This document shows, piece by piece, positions 2,499 through 10,632 of a DNA stretch of 52,223 bases (position 1 is the stretch's first letter; each line of letters starts with the position of its first letter). The position numbers were made by a program, and so were the translations under genes. Source of the DNA: Chloroflexota bacterium. GTDB taxonomy: Bacteria; Chloroflexota; Anaerolineae; Aggregatilineales; Ch27. Under the pieces are notes generated by a model that was given only the letters and a program-made list of their open reading frames with translations, was not told the DNA's origin and made no database searches. The stretch spans positions 1 to 52,223 of the forward strand of contig JAIOAT010000018.1 in NCBI GenBank assembly GCA_019873685.1, given 5' to 3'.

Positions 2499-2522
2499 TC
2501 GCCGCGGCACACCGGCGCAGCG

Positions 2523-2560
2523 AACACCAAGGCCCTCCTGCTCCGGAGGGCTTTGGTGTT
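2523..2560 (+). terminator. Hairpin terminator after the sortase operon
   Basis: Arms 2523-2538 and 2545-2560 pair over 16 positions with one G-T wobble around a 6-base loop. No long T run follows, but position and stem strength suggest termination. Confidence 0.75.
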
Positions 2561-2584
2561 GACTCGCCCACCTGTTCCCCTCTT

Positions 2585-2606
2585 ATTTGTGAAGACTTTC
2601 ACAAAT
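2585..2606. promoter_or_regulatory. CRP/FNR-type palindromic operator
   Basis: Perfect 9-base arms ATTTGTGAA and TTCACAAAT separated by GACT. The core reads TGTGA-N6-TCACA, the consensus bound by CRP/FNR family regulators. It ends one base before the -35 box at 2608, and its centre lies about 47 bases before the predicted transcription start, close to a class II activator position. The regulator itself is not in the window. Confidence 0.7.
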
Positions 2607-2607
2607 C

Positions 2608-2636
2608 TTGACACCCCTCTGCGTGCTGTCTATACT
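2608..2636 (+). promoter_or_regulatory. Consensus sigma-70 promoter of the metallo-hydrolase gene
   Basis: TTGACA at 2608-2613, 17-base spacer, TATACT at 2631-2636. One mismatch overall. A leader of about 64 bases precedes the ATG at 2707. Confidence 0.85.
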
Positions 2637-2706
2637 CTGCCCACTGGCTGGACTTTCCCCTCTGTAACCGGTATGAGTTGCGTTGTCTCAGTGATCGCCC
2701 AGAGCC

Positions 2707-3549
2707 ATGCAGCGTGAACGTGTAGCCGATGACATCTATGTGTTCACCAGCGAGCTGTATGCCCAGGTTACCGCTGGCGCCATCGTGACCTCTGAGGGCG
2801 CTATTCTCATCGACACGCTGGCTTACCCCGAAGAAACGCTCCAGATCAAGAACTTCCTGGAAAGACGCCTCAACTGCCCGGTACGGACAGTCATCAACAC
2901 GCATTACCACGCCGATCACACCTTTGGCACCTACCTCTTTGAGGACGCACTGGTCGTCGGTCATGCCCTGTGCCGCGACCTGCTGGATACCCGCGGGCGC
3001 AAGAGCATGGAAGAAGCCAGGCGAAGCAGTTCCGAATTCGCCGATGCCCGTGTCGTGCTGCCTGCGATGGTCTTCAAGACCGGCACGCTGGCCGTTCACC
3101 TGGGCAACAAGACGGTTGAACTGTGGCACTCCCCCGGCCACAGCCCGGATTCGGTGGTGGCCTATGTGCGCGAAGACCGTATCCTTTTTGCGGCGGATAC
3201 GATCATGCCCATTCCGTACTTCGTAGATGGCAGCTACGCTGACTTCATCAACTCGCTGGAAGCCCTGCGCGGCAAGGGATTTGAGTGCGTTGTCCAGGGG
3301 CACGGCGAGGTCGTCCTGCGCGGCGAGGTAGAAGCCAAACTGGATTCAGACCTGGAGTACCTCAGGCGGATCAGGCAACACGTGGAAAAAGCCCTGGACC
3401 GCAAAAGTCCTGAAAAGTACCTGGAGAAGATCGACATTGAAAGCTGCGGCAAGAGCCGCATAGCCCTCAACGGCGCTGTCCAGGACCTCCACCGTGCTAA
3501 TGTCCGCCTGCTCTACAGCCAGGTGCGCGCCGAAACGGTCCGGGCCTGA
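2707..3549 (+). CDS. Metallo-beta-lactamase-fold hydrolase
   Basis: 280 residues. The two-metal site is complete: HYHADH (His66, His68, Asp70, His71), His145 in HSPGHSPDS, Asp164 in FAADT and His199 in QGHGE. This is the MBL-fold superfamily, close to the glyoxalase II/teichoic-acid-type single-domain hydrolases; the substrate is not predictable. No signal peptide is present (MQRERVADD start), so it is cytoplasmic. It is probably monocistronic, with a consensus promoter and a CRP-like palindrome upstream. A new promoter starts the next gene. A hydrolytic role is well supported by the metal ligands; a beta-lactam role is not implied. Confidence 0.88.
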   Translation: MQRERVADDIYVFTSELYAQVTAGAIVTSEGAILIDTLAYPEETLQIKNFLERRLNCPVRTVINTHYHADHTFGTYLFEDALVVGHALCRDLLDTRGRKSMEEARRSSSEFADARVVLPAMVFKTGTLAVHLGNKTVELWHSPGHSPDSVVAYVREDRILFAADTIMPIPYFVDGSYADFINSLEALRGKGFECVVQGHGEVVLRGEVEAKLDSDLEYLRRIRQHVEKALDRKSPEKYLEKIDIESCGKSRIALNGAVQDLHRANVRLLYSQVRAETVRA

Positions 3550-3556
3550 AGTGTCG

Positions 3557-3586
3557 TTGCCAAACCGTCTCCTTGTACCCTATACT
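3557..3586 (+). promoter_or_regulatory. Promoter of the first DegV gene
   Basis: TTGCCA at 3557-3562, 18-base spacer, TATACT at 3581-3586. The start point would be near 3593, leaving a leader of about 90 bases that contains a hairpin. Confidence 0.65.
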
Positions 3587-3601
3587 CTGGTCAAACCGTC
3601 T
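3561..3601 (+). repeat. Direct repeat CAAACCGTCT flanking the -10 box
   Basis: Identical 10-base copies at 3561-3570 and 3592-3601, 31 bases apart start to start (about three helical turns). One overlaps the -35 end, the other the transcription start. The layout fits a regulator binding two sites on the same DNA face. Confidence 0.5.
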
Positions 3602-3603
3602 AC

Positions 3604-3622
3604 TGCGGAGTCACGCTCCGCA
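3604..3622 (+). promoter_or_regulatory. Leader hairpin before the first DegV gene
   Basis: TGCGGAG (3604-3610), loop TCACG, CTCCGCA (3616-3622): perfect 7-base stem near the 5' end of the predicted transcript. It could stabilise the mRNA or be part of a control element. Confidence 0.4.
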
Positions 3623-3684
3623 TGTTGTTATTCTATGCTTACCCTGCGCCGTGAGTCCCATCATCTTCAGGGAAGGAGCTGCCT

Positions 3685-4533
3685 GTGACGCCGCGATTTG
3701 CCCTGGTTACCGATACCACTGCTGACCTGCCTAACGAACTTGTCCGGCAACACAACATCTATATGATTCCGCAGATTATTGTCTGGGGCCGGGAGAGCCT
3801 GCGCGAAGGCATTGATATCACCAGCGCCGAATTCTTCAAGCGGCTGGCAACGGCCACCGTCATGCCTACTACTTCACGCCCCGTACCTTCCGACACCGTC
3901 GATCTCTTTAAGCGGGCGATCAAGGAGACCGGCGCGGAATCGGTGGTGGCCGTGGTTGTCTCCAAGGATGTCAGCGGCACAGTCTCATCAGTCGAACAGG
4001 CTATGAAGGAAGTTGACTTCCCTGTCCACCTGGTCGACACCCGCACCATCTCGCTGGCGCTGGGCCTGACCGTTCTCAAAGTCGCCGAGGCGCGTGACGC
4101 CGGCGCCAGTGCGGAAGAAGCTGTTGCCCTGGCCAAAGCTACCGCCGCCAACAGCCATGCCATCTTCACGCCCGGCACCCTGGAATTCCTGCGCCGTGGT
4201 GGGCGGATCGGCGGGGCCAAGCATCTGCTGGGCACGGCTCTCAACATCAAGCCAATCCTGACCCTCCAGGACGGGCATGTCGAGCCGCTGGAAAACGTGC
4301 GCACCCGCAAGCGCGCCCTGCAACGACTGATCGAGCTGACGGGCGAGCGGATCGTCCCCGGCAAGCCAGTCCAGCTCGGCGTCGTCCATGGGGCGGTGCC
4401 GGAGGAAGCAGCCGAGGTCGCCAGCGCGCTGGAACAGCTCTACAAACCGGAGCGTTTGCTTCAGAGCTGGATCGGTGCGTCGATCGGCGTCCACGCTGGA
4501 CCTGGTGTCCTGGGCATCATGATCGTGCAGTGA
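3685..4533 (+). CDS. DegV family protein (fatty-acid-binding), copy 1 of 4
   Basis: 282 residues from GTG, with GGAAGGAG at 3671-3678 as ribosome binding site. All DegV landmarks are present: N-terminal VTDTTADLP, the MPTTSRP loop, VSGTVSS, VDTRT, the FLRRGGRIGG turn, NIKPIL, the VRTRKRAL helix and C-terminal GVHAGPG. In the characterised FakB proteins, the Thr/Ser of the first loop, the Ser of SGT and the His of the last motif hold the fatty acid carboxylate, so ligand binding is likely. FakB presents bound fatty acid to the kinase FakA, but no FakA gene lies in the window. This copy has RRGGRIGG, like copy 2, while copies 3 and 4 have RSGRVS. Confidence 0.92.
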   Translation: MTPRFALVTDTTADLPNELVRQHNIYMIPQIIVWGRESLREGIDITSAEFFKRLATATVMPTTSRPVPSDTVDLFKRAIKETGAESVVAVVVSKDVSGTVSSVEQAMKEVDFPVHLVDTRTISLALGLTVLKVAEARDAGASAEEAVALAKATAANSHAIFTPGTLEFLRRGGRIGGAKHLLGTALNIKPILTLQDGHVEPLENVRTRKRALQRLIELTGERIVPGKPVQLGVVHGAVPEEAAEVASALEQLYKPERLLQSWIGASIGVHAGPGVLGIMIVQ

Positions 4534-4570
4534 TCGCCAGCCGTGTAATGGCGCAGCCAACTGCGGTAAT

Positions 4571-4611
4571 CCGGGCCGGTGCAGGAAACAGGTCTCTTGC
4601 CCGGCCTGTTT
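4571..4611 (+). promoter_or_regulatory. Overlapping alternative hairpins between DegV copies 1 and 2
   Basis: CCGGGC (4571-4576) can pair with GCCCGG (4599-4604), while AAACAGG (4586-4592) can pair with CCTGTTT (4605-4611), followed by TGTCT. The two pairings interlock. It may be a terminator of copy 1 or an attenuator of copy 2; no ligand-binding fold is recognised. Confidence 0.35.
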
Positions 4612-4685
4612 TGTCTGGGCAGCAACACTTTGCTGCTGAAGGTGTTACTACACTCGAATAAAACCCTATTGTGAAGGAGGACTTC

Positions 4686-5534
4686 GTGGCCCGCTTTGCC
4701 CTGATCACCGACAGCACCTCGGATCTGCCACCCGCCATTGCCCGCGAGCGGCAGATACACGTGGCGCCACTGTACATCATCTGGGGCCAGGATAGCCTGC
4801 GCGACGGCGTCGACATCACTCCGGAACAGTTCTATCGCCGTCTGGCCATCGACCCCGTGCTGCCGACGACATCGCAGCCGACGCCGGCCGATTTTGCGGA
4901 TCTATACCGGCAGACTCATGCCAGCAGTGACGCCGAAGGTGTGCTGGTACTGACCATTTCCGCCGACCTGAGCGGGACCTACGCTTCAGCGGTCCAGGCC
5001 CGCGACATGGTCGACTTCCCGGTCGAAGTTGTCGACCTGCGTTCGGTAACGCTGGGAACAGCCATGCCTGTGCTGCAGGTCGCTGACGCCCGCGATCAGG
5101 GCGCCTCCCTTCAGGAAGCCGCTGCCCTGGCCCGATCGCTGGCCAACCGGACGCACATCTACTTCACGCTGGACACCCTGGAATATCTGCACAAGGGTGG
5201 CCGCATCGGCGGCGCCAAGCGCCTGATCGGCACCGCCTTCAACATTAAGCCCGTGCTCCAGATCGCCAATGGCAGAGTTGAGGCCAAAGAGAGCATCCGG
5301 ACGCGCAAGCGCGCGCTGAGCCGGCTGGTTGAGCTATTTGAGGAGACTGTTGACCCCACCAAAACGCTATACGTTGGTCTGCTGCATGGCCAGGCCCCGG
5401 CGGACGCCGACTGGCTGGAGGCAGAGATCAAGGCCCGCTGGCAACCCGCCCAGCTGATCAAAGCCCAGGTCGGGGCGGTGATCGGCGTGCATACCGGCCC
5501 GGGCGCCGTAGGCTTTGCGTTGCTGCAACTTTGA
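4686..5534 (+). CDS. DegV family protein (fatty-acid-binding), copy 2 of 4
   Basis: 282 residues from GTG at 4686. A GTG at 4671 in the same frame is less likely because the strong Shine-Dalgarno AAGGAGG (4674-4680) lies between the two. Landmarks: ALITDSTSDLP, LPTTSQP, ISADLSGTYAS, VDLRSVTLG, YLHKGGRIGGAKR, NIKPVLQ, IRTRKRAL, GVHTGPGAVG. The ligand residues of FakB-type DegV proteins (Thr/Ser in TTS, Ser in SGT, His in VHTGPG) are kept. It is closest to copy 1 by its GGRIGGAKR segment. It sits 152 bases after copy 1, with the hairpin region between them, and 82 bases before copy 3. Confidence 0.92.
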   Translation: MARFALITDSTSDLPPAIARERQIHVAPLYIIWGQDSLRDGVDITPEQFYRRLAIDPVLPTTSQPTPADFADLYRQTHASSDAEGVLVLTISADLSGTYASAVQARDMVDFPVEVVDLRSVTLGTAMPVLQVADARDQGASLQEAAALARSLANRTHIYFTLDTLEYLHKGGRIGGAKRLIGTAFNIKPVLQIANGRVEAKESIRTRKRALSRLVELFEETVDPTKTLYVGLLHGQAPADADWLEAEIKARWQPAQLIKAQVGAVIGVHTGPGAVGFALLQL

Positions 5535-5616
5535 GTATCGCTCGGCCAGCCCGGCGCATCGGTAAGCCAGCAGCCTCAGCCGGGCTGGCCACCAGAACAG
5601 AAGAAGGAGTGATGAC

Positions 5617-6468
5617 GTGCCCCCGCAAATTGCGATTGTGACCGAAAGTACGGCGGATATTCCCCGTGAACTGGCCGCCGAGCGCCAGATCTTCACCACC
5701 CCCATGCACATCTACTGGGATGGCGAGGACCTGCGCGACGGCGTGGATATTGCGCCGGTCGAATTCTATGAGCGCCTGGTCACTTCGCGCACGCACCCGA
5801 CTACCTCACAGCCCACTGTGCCGGAATTCGCGGAGACCTTCGAACGTGCTCGCGCAGCAACAGGCGCTGTTGCAGTCATCGTCATGACGATGTCCGCCAA
5901 GCTGAGCGGCACCTACAACGCGGCCTGCCAGGCTGCCCGCGCAGTGGACTTTCCGGTGCACGTCATCGACAGCCGCACGGGTTCTCTGGCGCATGGCCTC
6001 GCCGCGCTAGCCCTGGCTGAAGCGCGGGACGCCGGCATCAGCCCACAGGAGGCAGTTCGGCTGGCCCGTGAACTTGCCGACCGCACCAGGATGATCTTCG
6101 CGCTCAACACGCTCGAATACCTCTATCGCAGCGGACGGGTGAGCAACCTCAAGCGTCTGCTGGGGGCGGCGCTCCAGATCAAGCCCATCCTGCACGTTGA
6201 GGATGGCGGCATCACCCTGCTGGAACAGGTGCGCACGCGCCGCCGTCAGATCGAGCGACTATTCGAGATTTTTGAAGAAGTGGTTGACCGCACCAAACCG
6301 CTGCGTGTTGGCGTGCTTCATGGCAACTCCTTCCAGGAAATGCAGGAATTCGTGGAGAGGATTCGCGCTCGCTGGAATCCGATTCAGCTGGTCACCAACA
6401 CGGTCTGCGCTCCCGTGGGGGTTCACACCGGCCCAGGTTCGCTGGGCTTCGCTATCCTGCAGACATAA
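5617..6468 (+). CDS. DegV family protein (fatty-acid-binding), copy 3 of 4
   Basis: 283 residues from GTG, with AAGAAGGAG at 5601-5609 as ribosome binding site. Landmarks: IAIVTESTADIP, HPTTSQP, MSAKLSGTYN, VIDSRTGSLA, YLYRSGRVSNLKR, QIKPIL, VRTRRRQIERL, GVHTGPGSLG. The Glu in TESTAD replaces the Asp seen in the other three copies. The RSGRVS turn groups it with copy 4. Ligand-contact residues of FakB-type proteins are present. Only 82 bases separate it from copy 2 and no clear promoter was found there, so it may be read through from copy 2. Confidence 0.92.
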   Translation: MPPQIAIVTESTADIPRELAAERQIFTTPMHIYWDGEDLRDGVDIAPVEFYERLVTSRTHPTTSQPTVPEFAETFERARAATGAVAVIVMTMSAKLSGTYNAACQAARAVDFPVHVIDSRTGSLAHGLAALALAEARDAGISPQEAVRLARELADRTRMIFALNTLEYLYRSGRVSNLKRLLGAALQIKPILHVEDGGITLLEQVRTRRRQIERLFEIFEEVVDRTKPLRVGVLHGNSFQEMQEFVERIRARWNPIQLVTNTVCAPVGVHTGPGSLGFAILQT

Positions 6469-6512
6469 CCGGGCGCCTGAGCCACAGTAGGATTTGAAAG
6501 TAGACAGAATAT

Positions 6513-6541
6513 TTGCATTATCTGGACGTAATATATACAAT
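6513..6541 (+). promoter_or_regulatory. Promoter of the fourth DegV gene
   Basis: TTGCAT at 6513-6518, 17-base spacer, TACAAT at 6536-6541, inside an AT-rich island between GC-rich genes. Leader about 80 bases. Confidence 0.6.
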
Positions 6542-6559
6542 ACGGCTACATAACGTCCA
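6523..6559. promoter_or_regulatory. Inverted repeat around the -10 box of DegV copy 4
   Basis: TGGACGT at 6523-6529 and ACGTCCA at 6553-6559 are perfect inverted 7-mers, 30 bases apart start to start, bracketing the -10 and start point. They look like paired operator half-sites; hairpin formation across 23 bases is less likely. Confidence 0.45.
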
Positions 6560-6625
6560 TTTATCCCGGCATACCTGCCGATCAGTGTACAGCGAGCGAC
6601 AGCAAAAGGATTCTGGAATCTGCTC

Positions 6626-7474
6626 ATGAAAACGAAAATTGCCATTGTGACCGATAGCACCTCGGACATTCCCGCCGCCCTCGCCGCCGAGCGCCAGATC
6701 TTTGTGGCCCCCCTGCACATCCTGTGGGGCGGTCAGGATCTGCTGGACGGCGTCGACATCAGCCGGGAAGAGTTCTATCGGCGGCTGACCACCGATCCCC
6801 ACCACCCGACTACCTCCCAGCCCGCCCCGGAGGAGTTCGCCAGCCTGTTCCAGCGCGCCCGTGACGCTACGGACGCCAGCGCCGTGCTCGCCGTGACCAT
6901 CTCCGCCGCCATCAGCGGCACCTACAATTCCGCCGAACAGGCCGCCAGGCTGGTCGACTTCCCGGTTCACCTTGTCGACTCCCGCACGACCTCCGGCGCA
7001 CTGGGTCTGTTGACCCTGGCCATCGCCGACCTGCGCGACAGCGGGGCGCCGGTCGAGCAGATCGTCCAGCAGGCGCGCGAATACGTCAACCGGACCCGGG
7101 CTATCCTGACCATCGACACGCTGGAGTTCCTGCACCGCAGCGGGCGTGTCAGCACCGCCCGGCGCTGGATCGGCGCACTGCTCCAGATGAAGCCTATTCT
7201 GTATGTCAACAATGGGCGGCTGGAGGCCCTGGAGGCCGTGCGCACCCGCAACGTCGCTCTGGCCAGGATGCTGGAAATCTTCAACGGCTGGGTGGACCCT
7301 GACCGCCCGCTGCACGTAGCCATTCTCTACGGCGATACGCCGCAGGACGCCGACGCCTACGAGGCCGTGCTGAGAGAACGCTGGAATCCGGCCTTCATCA
7401 TGAAGGTGATTGCGTCTTCAGCGGTTGGTGTGCATACTGGACCCGGCGCAATGGGGCTGACCCTGTTTCAGTAA
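6626..7474 (+). CDS. DegV family protein (fatty-acid-binding), copy 4 of 4
   Basis: 282 residues from ATG; the ribosome binding site (AAGGAT at 6606-6611) is weak and distant. Landmarks: IAIVTDSTSDIP, HPTTSQP, ISAAISGTYN, VDSRTTSGALG, FLHRSGRVSTARR, QMKPIL, VRTRNVALARM, GVHTGPGAMG. The usual Ile of the KPI segment is preceded by Met, and RTRKRAL has become RTRNVAL, a divergence that may alter partner contacts. Fatty-acid carboxylate residues are kept. It has its own promoter and an inverted repeat, so it may be regulated separately from copies 1-3. Confidence 0.92.
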   Translation: MKTKIAIVTDSTSDIPAALAAERQIFVAPLHILWGGQDLLDGVDISREEFYRRLTTDPHHPTTSQPAPEEFASLFQRARDATDASAVLAVTISAAISGTYNSAEQAARLVDFPVHLVDSRTTSGALGLLTLAIADLRDSGAPVEQIVQQAREYVNRTRAILTIDTLEFLHRSGRVSTARRWIGALLQMKPILYVNNGRLEALEAVRTRNVALARMLEIFNGWVDPDRPLHVAILYGDTPQDADAYEAVLRERWNPAFIMKVIASSAVGVHTGPGAMGLTLFQ

Positions 7475-7507
7475 AGCCCCCTGGTTTGGACACAAGTGAG
7501 GAGCAGT

Positions 7508-7993
7508 ATGGAGCCGTTCACGCCGGAGCATGTCCAGGCGGCGCTGGATCGCTTTGGCCTGGGGCTGAAGATTCGCCTGTTTGAGCAGTCTACCGCCACT
7601 TCTCAGGAGGCCGCCGACGCCATCGGGACGCCGCTCGGCACTATCGTCAAGAGTCTGTGTTTCATGGTGGATGGCCAGCCAGTTGTCGTTCTGGCGGCAG
7701 GCGATCAGCGCATCGATGACCGCAAGCTGGCCGCGCTGTACAACACCTCGCGCAAGAAGGTCAGAATCGCCACCGCGGAGCAGTGCATCGCCATCTTCGG
7801 CTACGCGCCCGGCAGCGTCCCACCGGTCGGCCACCGCACGCCCAACCTGCCGATCTACATCGAGGATTCGCTGGGGCGTTTCACCCAGCTTTATGCTGCT
7901 GCTGGCGCGCCGAATGCCATCTTCCCGGTGACCTACGAGCAGTTGCAGCAGATTACCGGCGGCACGGTCGCCGACCTGAAGCGGGAAGACTGA
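7508..7993 (+). CDS. YbaK/ProX-type aminoacyl-tRNA deacylase
   Basis: 161 residues from ATG at 7508, chosen over GTG 7496 because GAGGAG (7498-7503) is placed correctly only for the ATG. The fold is that of the YbaK/EbsC editing domain: TSQEAADAIGTPLGTIVKSLCF with the key Lys, VVLAAGDQRID, KLAALY, and GYAPGSVPPVGH near the C-terminus. Family members hydrolyse mischarged Cys- or Ala-tRNA(Pro), or act as free-standing editing factors. It follows DegV copy 4 by 33 bases and may share its transcript. Which mischarged tRNA it edits cannot be stated from sequence alone. Confidence 0.9.
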   Translation: MEPFTPEHVQAALDRFGLGLKIRLFEQSTATSQEAADAIGTPLGTIVKSLCFMVDGQPVVVLAAGDQRIDDRKLAALYNTSRKKVRIATAEQCIAIFGYAPGSVPPVGHRTPNLPIYIEDSLGRFTQLYAAAGAPNAIFPVTYEQLQQITGGTVADLKRED

Positions 7994-8047
7994 GTACGTT
8001 CATCCACTATCCCACATCCTTCCCGCTGGATAACCCACCGTTTTCCC

Positions 8048-8087
8048 GCATTATCCCGCACGGAATCCCACCGCTGCGGGATAATGC
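8048..8087. terminator. Perfect inverted repeat between convergent genes
   Basis: GCATTATCCCGCA at 8048-8060 and its exact complement at 8075-8087, 14-base loop. It lies between the ends of the YbaK and tsaC genes and probably acts as a bidirectional terminator, though no T tract follows either arm. Confidence 0.6.
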
Positions 8088-8090
8088 GCA

Positions 8091-8711
8091 TCAGTACCCC
8101 AACACCGCCCGGATTTGCCCTTCCGTGATCGGCCCCTGCCGGAAGATCACCGGCGCCCCGGCATCATCGAAGCCGACCACAGTCGAAGGCGCACCGCCCG
8201 GTGCAGGGCCATCATCCATGTAGTAGGTCACTGCTGCCCCAAGCTGGGCATAAGCCTGCTGAACGCTGAGCGGATTCGGCCCACCGGAGCGATTGGCGCT
8301 GGTCACAGCCAGCGCCCCACCCATCATGCGGATGACCGCCCGTGTGAGATCGTGATCCGGCACACGCACGCCAACCGTCGGCAGGGTTGTCAGGTTCTCC
8401 GGCAGTTCAGGTAATTTCGGCAGCACGATCGTCAGCGGCCCCGGCCAGAACGCTTCAGCCAGCAAGCGGGCTGCACGCGGCGCTTCCTGACACACGTGCT
8501 CGATTCCATCAGGATCGCTGAGCAGGAGCGGGATCGGTTTGTCCTCAGCGCGGCCTTTTGCGGCATACAGGCGGTCAATTGCCACCGAAGAATGCGCGGA
8601 CGCCGCCACGCCGTAGACGGTATCAGTGGGCAGGACGACCAGTTGCCCTTCCCGCAATGCCTGGTAAGCCAAGGGGACGGTCTTAGCGTTGAAAGGGATG
8701 ATGCGACTCAT
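8091..8711 (-). CDS. tsaC: Threonylcarbamoyl-AMP synthase (Sua5/YciO/YrdC family)
   Basis: 206 residues. It makes threonylcarbamoyl-AMP from Thr, bicarbonate and ATP for the t6A37 modification of ANN-decoding tRNAs. Signature stretches: LVVLPTDTVYGV near the N-terminus, the KGRAEDKPIPLLL Lys/Arg motif, WPGPLTIVL, VGVRVPDH and the TSANRSGGPNP loop. At 206 residues it is the short TsaC form, without the Sua5 C-terminal domain. Its ATG overlaps the prmC stop by 4 bases, so it is translationally coupled as the third gene of prfA-prmC-tsaC. The order release factor, its methylase, then YrdC is common in bacteria. The start has no independent ribosome binding site evidence. Confidence 0.93.
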   Translation of the reverse strand: MSRIIPFNAKTVPLAYQALREGQLVVLPTDTVYGVAASAHSSVAIDRLYAAKGRAEDKPIPLLLSDPDGIEHVCQEAPRAARLLAEAFWPGPLTIVLPKLPELPENLTTLPTVGVRVPDHDLTRAVIRMMGGALAVTSANRSGGPNPLSVQQAYAQLGAAVTYYMDDGPAPGGAPSTVVGFDDAGAPVIFRQGPITEGQIRAVLGY

Positions 8712-9568
8712 CGGGTTACCTCCACGACGCGTTCGTGACCAGCGTAATCCGGCAACACCCGCACCTGTGCATCGGGGAACGCCTGCCGACAGAGGGCGCT
8801 TACCGCCCCGCCCTGCCCGGCTCCGATCTCCAGCAGGAGGGCAAAAGTAGGTGGCAGACGGTCGATCGCCTGGGTCACCAGCCGACGGATCACATCCAGG
8901 CCATCCGGCCCGCCATCCAGCGCCAGCCGCGGCTCATGCCGGGCTACGGCCAGAGCATCCAGATCGGCGGAAGGGATGTACGGCAGGTTGGCGGCGATCA
9001 GATCAGGGTTAACGCCTTCTGGCAGCGCGGCCAGCAAATCCCCCTGGCCAAACCGTACATTGGATACGCCAATCTGGATGGCATTACGGCGGGCGACTTC
9101 CAGTGCCGCGGCGCTGCAATCCAGCGCGTAGACGGTGGCCCCGGGCAGCGCCGCTGCCAGCGACAGCGCGATCGCCCCGCTGCCAGTCCCCACATCGGCA
9201 ATGGTCAACCGCTGTGCCGGGCGCGCCTGCGCCCATGCCAGCGCCGCGTCAACCAGATGCTCAGTCTCCGGACGCGGGATCAGCACGTCCGGCGTCACGA
9301 TAAAGTCATGATGGCAAAAGGCACGCCAGCCGGTCAGGTACGGGATCGGCGTCCCTTCCGCCGCCCTGGCAACCAGCTCTGCGTACCGCGCCGCCTGATC
9401 GGGCGTCAGCGGACGCTCCGGGTGAGCCAGCAAAGCAGTGCGCTCCACGCCCAGAACCGCCGTCAGCAGCACGCCAGCGTCAAGCTGTGGCGACCCGGAC
9501 ACTGCACCGAGCGCCTGGCTGGCCTGGCGCAATGCCTCGCCCACCATTTGCCCGGTTATCACGCTCAT
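8708..9568 (-). CDS. prmC: Release factor glutamine methyltransferase
   Basis: 286 residues. It methylates the Gln of the GGQ motif in RF1/RF2. An N-terminal helical domain (about 1-80) is followed by a Rossmann methyltransferase domain with [16 protein letters not shown] (motif I), [14 protein letters not shown], and NLPYIP, the equivalent of the NPPY active-site motif that cradles the Gln; the second residue is Leu rather than Pro, a variant also known in PrmC proteins. It overlaps the prfA stop by 4 bases and the tsaC start by 4 bases, so all three are coupled. The neighbouring RF1 gene is its substrate. Confidence 0.94.
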
Positions 9569-10632
9569 GCCTCGGCCAGCCGTTCCGCCTGCTCGCGGGT
9601 GGCCAGTTCATCGATGAACATATCTATTTCACCAGCCATCACGGCGCTCAGGTTGTAACTGCTCAAGTTGATACGATGGTCAGTCACCCGGTTCTGCGGG
9701 AAGTTATAGGTGCGGATCTTCTCGCTGCGCTCGCCAGTGCCCACCTGGCTGCGCCGCTCCTGTGCCCGTTCTTCCTGCAGACGGCGCTGCTCCATGTCAT
9801 ACAGCCGCGCCCGCAGGATACTCATCGCCCGCAGGCGATTCTGGGTCTGGCTGCGCTCGTCCTGACAGGCCACCACCAGGCCGGTCGGCAGATGGGTTAT
9901 CCGCACGGCGGTCTCATTCTTCTGGACATTCTGACCACCAGCGCCGGCGCTGCGATAGGTGTCGATCTGCAGGTCGTTAGGGTTGATGTCGATCTCCACC
10001 TCGTCCACTTCGGCCAGGACGGCCACCGTCGCCGTACTGGTATGGATACGCCCCTGGCTCTCCGTGATCGGCACCCGCTGGACGCGGTGAACGCCGCTTT
10101 CGTACTTCAGGCGGCTGTAAGCGCCACGACCTTTGATGGTGAAGATGATCTCCTTGTATCCGCCCTGGCCGGTCTCATGGGCGCTGATCACCTCGGTCTT
10201 CCAGTTACGCGCCTCGGCATAGCGCATGTACATACGCGCCAGGTCCGCAGCGAAAAGCGCCGCCTCATCGCCGCCCGTCCCGGCCCGGATTTCCATGATC
10301 ACGTTCTTGTCGTCGCGGGGGTCTTTGGGCAGCAGCAACAGGCGGATCCGCTCTTCCAGCGCATCCCGGCGCTGAACCAGGTTATCGATCTCAGCTTCAG
10401 CCAGCTCGGCCAAGTCGGGGTCTTCTTCGGCGTCCAGCAGGGCGCGGGCTTCCTCCAGCTCTCTGACCACGCGGCTGTATTCCCGCGAGGCGGCCACAAT
10501 CTCGTCAAGCTCGGCCTTTTCCTGGGCCAGTTCCGCCACCCGCTCATAATCCACAATCACCGCCGGATCGGCCAGCAGCTTTTCGATCTCGTTGTAGCGC
10601 GCCTCGATGCCCGCCAGTTTCTTTTGCAGCAT
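9565..10632 (-). CDS. prfA: Peptide chain release factor 1
   Basis: 355 residues, the normal RF1 length. The peptidyl-tRNA hydrolysis motif GGQ is in [15 protein letters not shown], and the tripeptide anticodon region reads [14 protein letters not shown]; the PxT form marks RF1 (UAA/UAG) rather than RF2. An N-terminal helical domain spans about 1-100. It is the first gene of the leftward prfA-prmC-tsaC operon. A -10 TATACT with weak -35 lies at 10726-10755, and a strong GC hairpin stands in the leader. The start ATG has GCAGGA a few bases upstream. Confidence 0.96.

Follow-up and report, generated by a model that had tools for sequence, protein, structure and literature searches.

A row of four consecutive degV genes in a bacterium of the order Aggregatilineales (Chloroflexota) raises the question of whether such a row encodes a set of fatty acid carriers of the FakB type, how it arose, and how its members might be controlled and used by a FakA kinase. 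The row lies in a window of 52,223 nucleotides, by which the whole stretch of DNA analysed is meant; this window is contig C18 of a 4.1 Mb draft genome in 109 contigs (G000), and the sister species is referred to as G001. The Fak system in Chloroflexota seems to be hardly described in the literature, one paper among those searched mentioning fatty acid kinase together with this phylum. If the copies carry different acyl chains, the row would be a natural and well-preserved paralogous FakB set for studying chain selectivity.

The four genes and their FakB-like features

A preliminary description, made from the DNA letters, had reported four full-length DegV proteins of 282-283 residues in a row, and this was borne out by the open reading frames and their TIGR00762 scores. 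All four frames are intact, lie on the forward strand and code for 282, 282, 283 and 282 amino acids. The genes and their immediate neighbours are as follows:

2707-3549 (+), metallo-beta-lactamase-fold hydrolase upstream of the row; PF00753; same place in G001, G002 and G003
3685-4533 (+), degV copy 1 (FakB-like, 282 aa); TIGR00762 276 bits; orthologues in 5/5 family genomes (support 100/100); dN/dS 0.03
4686-5534 (+), degV copy 2 (FakB-like, 282 aa); TIGR00762 296 bits; orthologues in 5/5 genomes (90/96); dN/dS 0.07
5617-6468 (+), degV copy 3 (FakB-like, 283 aa); TIGR00762 274 bits; orthologues in 4 genomes (100/99); dN/dS 0.05
6626-7474 (+), degV copy 4 (FakB-like, 282 aa); TIGR00762 281 bits; G000 and G001 only; dN/dS 0.06
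7508-7993 (+), YbaK-like aminoacyl-tRNA editing gene; PF04073; 33 nt after copy 4; conserved neighbour

The start of copy 2 is the GTG at 4686, the mechanical ORF start being 4671. Membership of the DegV family is clear for all four copies, which score 274-296 bits on TIGR00762 (curated cut-off 99.7) and 259-281 bits in full-length matches to PF02645 (cut-off 27). On the FakB1 equivalog model NF038249 they reach 154-176 bits, below its cut-off of 350, and they are hence termed DegV/FakB-like and not FakB1. The copies are 41-54% identical to one another. The genome encodes seven DegV proteins, four in the array, one on contig C13 and two on contig C14; since the number per genome ranges from 0 to 10 across the class, with at least seven in 30 of 150 genomes, this total is not unusual.

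Alignment with Staphylococcus aureus FakB1, whose numbering is used here, placed T62, S95, R173, R205 and H270 in all four copies. In FakB, T62, S95 and H270 form the carboxylate network, R173 is the arginine essential for phosphoryl transfer, and R205 serves docking to FakA and the membrane (PMC8892158; PMC9136124). The earlier statement that every copy keeps the residues holding the fatty acid was therefore correct as regards T62, S95 and H270. R173 and R205 are present in all four copies of both G000 and G001, the lone exception among the orthologues being R205H in copy 3 of G004. S. aureus FakB1 and FakB2 share the DegV fold and these five residues with the array copies, to which they are 28-29% identical; S. 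aureus has two FakBs (PMC8892158), whereas seven DegV genes, four of them in one row, are found here.

The array proteins match 25 PDB sequences, including FakB1, FakB2 and FakB3, and their solved relatives are DegV/FakB lipid-binding proteins. An AlphaFold model of copy 4 (mean pLDDT 92.9) had 2dt8 as its best PDB match and gave TM scores of 0.86-0.91 against 2dt8, TM841 and FakB1, which are FakB/DegV lipid complexes. FakB-type fatty-acid binding chemistry of the four copies is supported by these alignments and by the predicted fold.

The copies differ in the acyl tunnel, where positions 121/158 of FakB1 read I/A, V/I, G/M and T/A in copies 1, 2, 3 and 4, respectively; G/M is constant in copy 3 of all four genomes that have this copy. 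Bulkier residues at positions 121 and 158 of FakB1 displace the acyl chain, and the differing residues are compatible with different acyl preferences of the copies, a reading that the preliminary description had thought plausible. In Enterococcus faecalis, the four FakBs overlap in substrate, and neither clade nor pocket residues reliably predict acyl selectivity (PMC12594616).

Neighbourhood and origin of the row

G000-G003 share the gene order methyltransferase, sortase, small membrane protein, metallo-beta-lactamase, degV row and ybaK, followed beyond ybaK, on the opposite strand, by tsaC/Sua5-like, prmC and prfA genes. Throughout the family, the row is accompanied by the YbaK-like gene and by the convergent Sua5-prmC-prfA group (8091-10632). 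Orthologous array copies stand in matching order in five family genomes (G000-G004). The sister species has all four in identical gene order at about 90% nucleotide identity, and the other genera have three or two. A survey of 154 genomes of the order showed the four-copy array in G000 and G001 only.

In place of four copies, the other families of the order have one relative, two in tandem (f3) or a fused double gene (G015) at this locus, often before a ybaK-like gene. A ybaK-like gene follows the degV gene or genes in families f1, f3, f6 and f8. The closest relatives of the array are the single-copy degV-ybaK pairs of other Aggregatilineales families, which are about 43-49% identical to the array copies and in which the ybaK-like gene follows in f3, f6 and f8. 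In G015, the locus L059:5962-7668 consists of one ORF that encodes two fused DegV domains and precedes the ybaK-like gene; in the alignment, R takes the place of H270 in its N-terminal half.

In the tree, the 16 array members from the five family genomes form one clade (support 92/87). Within it, copy 1 forms a set from five genomes (100/100), copy 2 one from five (90/96) and copy 3 one from four (100/99), and copy 4, confined to G000 and G001, groups with copy 3 at 93/91. The preliminary description had proposed two rounds of duplication, giving copies 1-2 and copies 3-4; the second grouping was recovered, but copies 1 and 2 as sisters were neither shown nor rejected (AU p 0.58). It had also distinguished the two subgroups by their motifs, which stand for copy 2 (GGRIGGAKR) and copies 3-4 (SGRVS) but not for copy 1, which reads GGRIGGAKH. 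As most outgroups have GGR too, the motif is no proof that copies 1 and 2 are sisters. A recent origin of copy 4 from copy 3 was rejected (AU p 0.007), and one from copy 2 was borderline (AU p 0.054). From the rejection of a recent copy-3 origin it follows that the four-gene state probably predates the split of the family and was followed by losses; on the sequence data, this state is probably older than the genus, the other genera having lost copies. Between G000 and G001, dN/dS is 0.03, 0.07, 0.05 and 0.06 for copies 1-4, indicating strong purifying selection on each.

It was considered whether the row might not have arisen in place at all. Separate acquisition of the four genes by horizontal transfer could account for the low identity between the copies, yet all 16 array members fall into one clade, and the same place, order and neighbours are found in several genera; a check by tree for separate transfers, which the preliminary description had called for, gave no sign of them. 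This explanation is very improbable and was rejected on the tree and the gene order. Still further from credible is an artefact of metagenome binning and assembly: the genome is indeed a draft in 109 contigs, but at about 90% nucleotide identity the sister species repeats the row gene for gene, and the cluster recurs in other genera, and the artefact was rejected on these grounds. As far as sequences and their order tell, the array is a set of old in-place tandem duplicates of one gene, within one Aggregatilineales family.

The layout had been put forward as a candidate for an undescribed lipid-handling arrangement; that it is unparalleled was not supported, since rows of four degV genes also occur elsewhere in the phylum. 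Three genomes of one genus have the order fakA-degV x4-recG (L202:3891-7421, L203:4018-7551 and L204:3945-7478). Each consists of one contig of 1.4-1.5 Mb and gives 19-28 reductive-dehalogenase matches, features that fit Dehalococcoides, to which we infer that these genomes belong. These rows share with the array the four consecutive degV genes, but they sit inside the fakA cluster and are only 30-35% identical to the array copies; at the H270 position, Y is found in the first and second copies of each row and S in the third. Within the same order, family f3 has unrelated rows of four (G024, contig C110) and three genes (G039, contig C200). In the row of G024 (L050:6437-10169), some members have lost FakB residues (e.g. 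Q62, A95, Y270). Taken with the Dehalococcoides-like rows, those of f3 indicate that degV rows arose at least three times in the phylum, some of these expansions lying within the fakA cluster. A literature search for degV rows in Dehalococcoides or Chloroflexota found nothing relevant.

Regions between the copies

The upstream regions of the copies contain the following elements:

3557-3586 (+), promoter-like site before copy 1, TTGCCA-18-TATACT; 10/12 consensus matches
3561-3604 (+), 13-nt direct repeat before copy 1 (3561-3573 and 3592-3604); 12/13 match; 0/200 shuffles
3604-3622 (+), short hairpin in the leader of copy 1; 8-pair stem with weak T tail; stem largely kept in G001
4572-4612 (+), GC-rich hairpin with short T run between copies 1 and 2; predicted fold; kept in G001
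5544-5590 (+), perfect 12-bp inverted repeat between copies 2 and 3; z -4.5; 0/200 shuffles
6512-6541 (+), promoter-like site before copy 4, TTTGCA-18-TACAAT, overlapping the inverted repeat; 9/12 consensus matches; both hexamers kept in G001
6523-6559 (no strand assigned), operator-like inverted repeat TGGACGT...ACGTCCA before copy 4; 11/13 pairs; 2/200 shuffles

Before copy 1, the preliminary description had seen a promoter with a direct repeat. The promoter is conserved, its -10 hexamer TATACT being kept in G001 and recurring at a comparable position in G002 and G003; the repeat is present but not conserved, its first unit being changed in G001. The repeat is probably without function, and as a regulatory element it was rejected on account of its degradation in the sister species. 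The interlocking hairpins described before copy 2 are kept in G001, but they fold only moderately better than shuffled sequences (z -1.9) and do not extend beyond the genus: the gap between copies 1 and 2 holds a different GC-rich hairpin with a T run in G003 and no clear one in G002 and G004. The hairpin between these copies looks like a weak terminator or attenuator.

Copy 3 had been described as the one copy lacking a special control region, and here the sequence tells otherwise, as the strongest hairpin of the array, with its perfect 12-bp stem, stands before it. The arms of this inverted repeat are unchanged in G001, but G003 and G004 lack the repeat. Conservation of the hairpins preceding copies 2 and 3 is confined to the genus and does not reach the other genera. 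The inverted repeat reported before copy 4 was confirmed, the shuffles being joined by conservation of 25 of 26 arm bases in G001; with the promoter-like site that overlaps it, this region is the best candidate for separate control. A search of the genome for a second site of this repeat gave none that was credible, and a regulon was rejected on this ground. No known RNA families were found at window positions 2500-9000.

FakA and the possible use of the array

As the preliminary description had stated, no FakA kinase is encoded in the window, and the search of the genome that it had advised found a single FakA on contig C14, with all three FakA domains (Dak2, middle and FakA-like C). It lies in the cluster asp23-fakA-degV-degV-recG, so that the degV array is unlinked to fakA, which has a degV pair of its own. 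PlsX and PlsY are both encoded in the genome. With FakA, PlsX and PlsY present, the usual path from FakB-bound fatty acid to acyl-phosphate and on to lysophosphatidate can be drawn.

It is considered likely that the array consists of FakB-type carriers which arose by tandem expansion in this family and supply the one FakA. An ancestral single degV gene before a ybaK-like gene would have been expanded in tandem in one family. Each array FakB would take a fatty acid out of the membrane, enclose its acyl chain and offer the carboxylate to the one FakA, whose gene lies elsewhere in the genome. Acyl-phosphate would then be made by FakA, and PlsY (or PlsX in reverse) would pass the acyl group into phospholipid. 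That FakA uses the array copies is our inference, the copies possibly differ in acyl preference, and copies 1 and 4 may be expressed from their own promoters. The Dehalococcoides-like rows, being placed inside a fakA-recG cluster, support a role with FakA for degV rows; that the array is unlinked to fakA, and its scores on the FakB1 equivalog model, count against reading its members as carriers for FakA. Several FakBs with one FakA are also found in the four-FakB systems of E. faecalis, Streptococcus suis and S. pyogenes (PMC10138225; PMC12594616), from which the array differs in that its four paralogues stand side by side at a single locus and were duplicated inside the family. As four-gene rows arose separately elsewhere in the phylum, the array amounts to a modest variant of a known system of lipid recycling, and a new pathway is not indicated.

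Two other uses of the copies have to be weighed. The copies may share or overlap in specificity and differ mainly in the timing of their production, a matter of dosage or condition-dependent expression; this is compatible with a FakB role and competes only with the acyl-preference part of the explanation above. The differing leader regions point in this direction, the promoter of copy 1 being conserved and that of copy 4 being conserved together with an inverted repeat, as do the FakBs of E. faecalis, which overlap in substrate and may serve different settings (PMC12594616); that the copies are only 41-54% identical and differ at both tunnel positions speaks against it, and we regard it as possible, if somewhat doubtful. 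Alternatively, the copies may bind acyl chains without FakA and serve to buffer or sequester fatty acids in free form. Such a role has been proposed for S. pyogenes FakB4, an example of how acyl-chain binding by a DegV protein need not feed into phospholipid synthesis (PMC10138225). Besides this precedent, the lack of linkage to fakA, whose cluster has its own degV pair, agrees with such buffering; that every copy in G000 and G001 retains R173 and R205 argues against it, and it appears unlikely.

The DegV encoded directly after fakA presents a different picture. R173 and T62 are missing from it in 20 of 20 Aggregatilineales loci checked (L010:6495-7358 on the reverse strand of C14; L042, L044, L049, L154-L164 and L167-L171), with L, I or F at position 173. 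H270 is also lost in most families except the window's own. In the wider class the state varies, with leucine at 173 in L213 and L221, glutamine in L214 and R173 kept in others. The predicted fold is still that of DegV, and a weak structural lead is provided by a match of the model, at rank 49, to DhaQ, the co-activator paralogue of the dihydroxyacetone kinase operon. The loss of these residues beside the kinase suggests a non-carrier role, and this protein is possibly a catalytically dead FakB partner of FakA. A literature search for a FakB of this kind found no description. It would go further, and is rather improbable, that the kinase system of Aggregatilineales is split between a dead DegV beside fakA, without R173 and T62 and perhaps regulatory or serving docking, and carriers consisting of the second DegV of the cluster and, in this family, an unlinked, separately controlled and specialised FakB row. 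A fakA-adjacent DegV without the catalytic arginine is a more unusual observation than the array.
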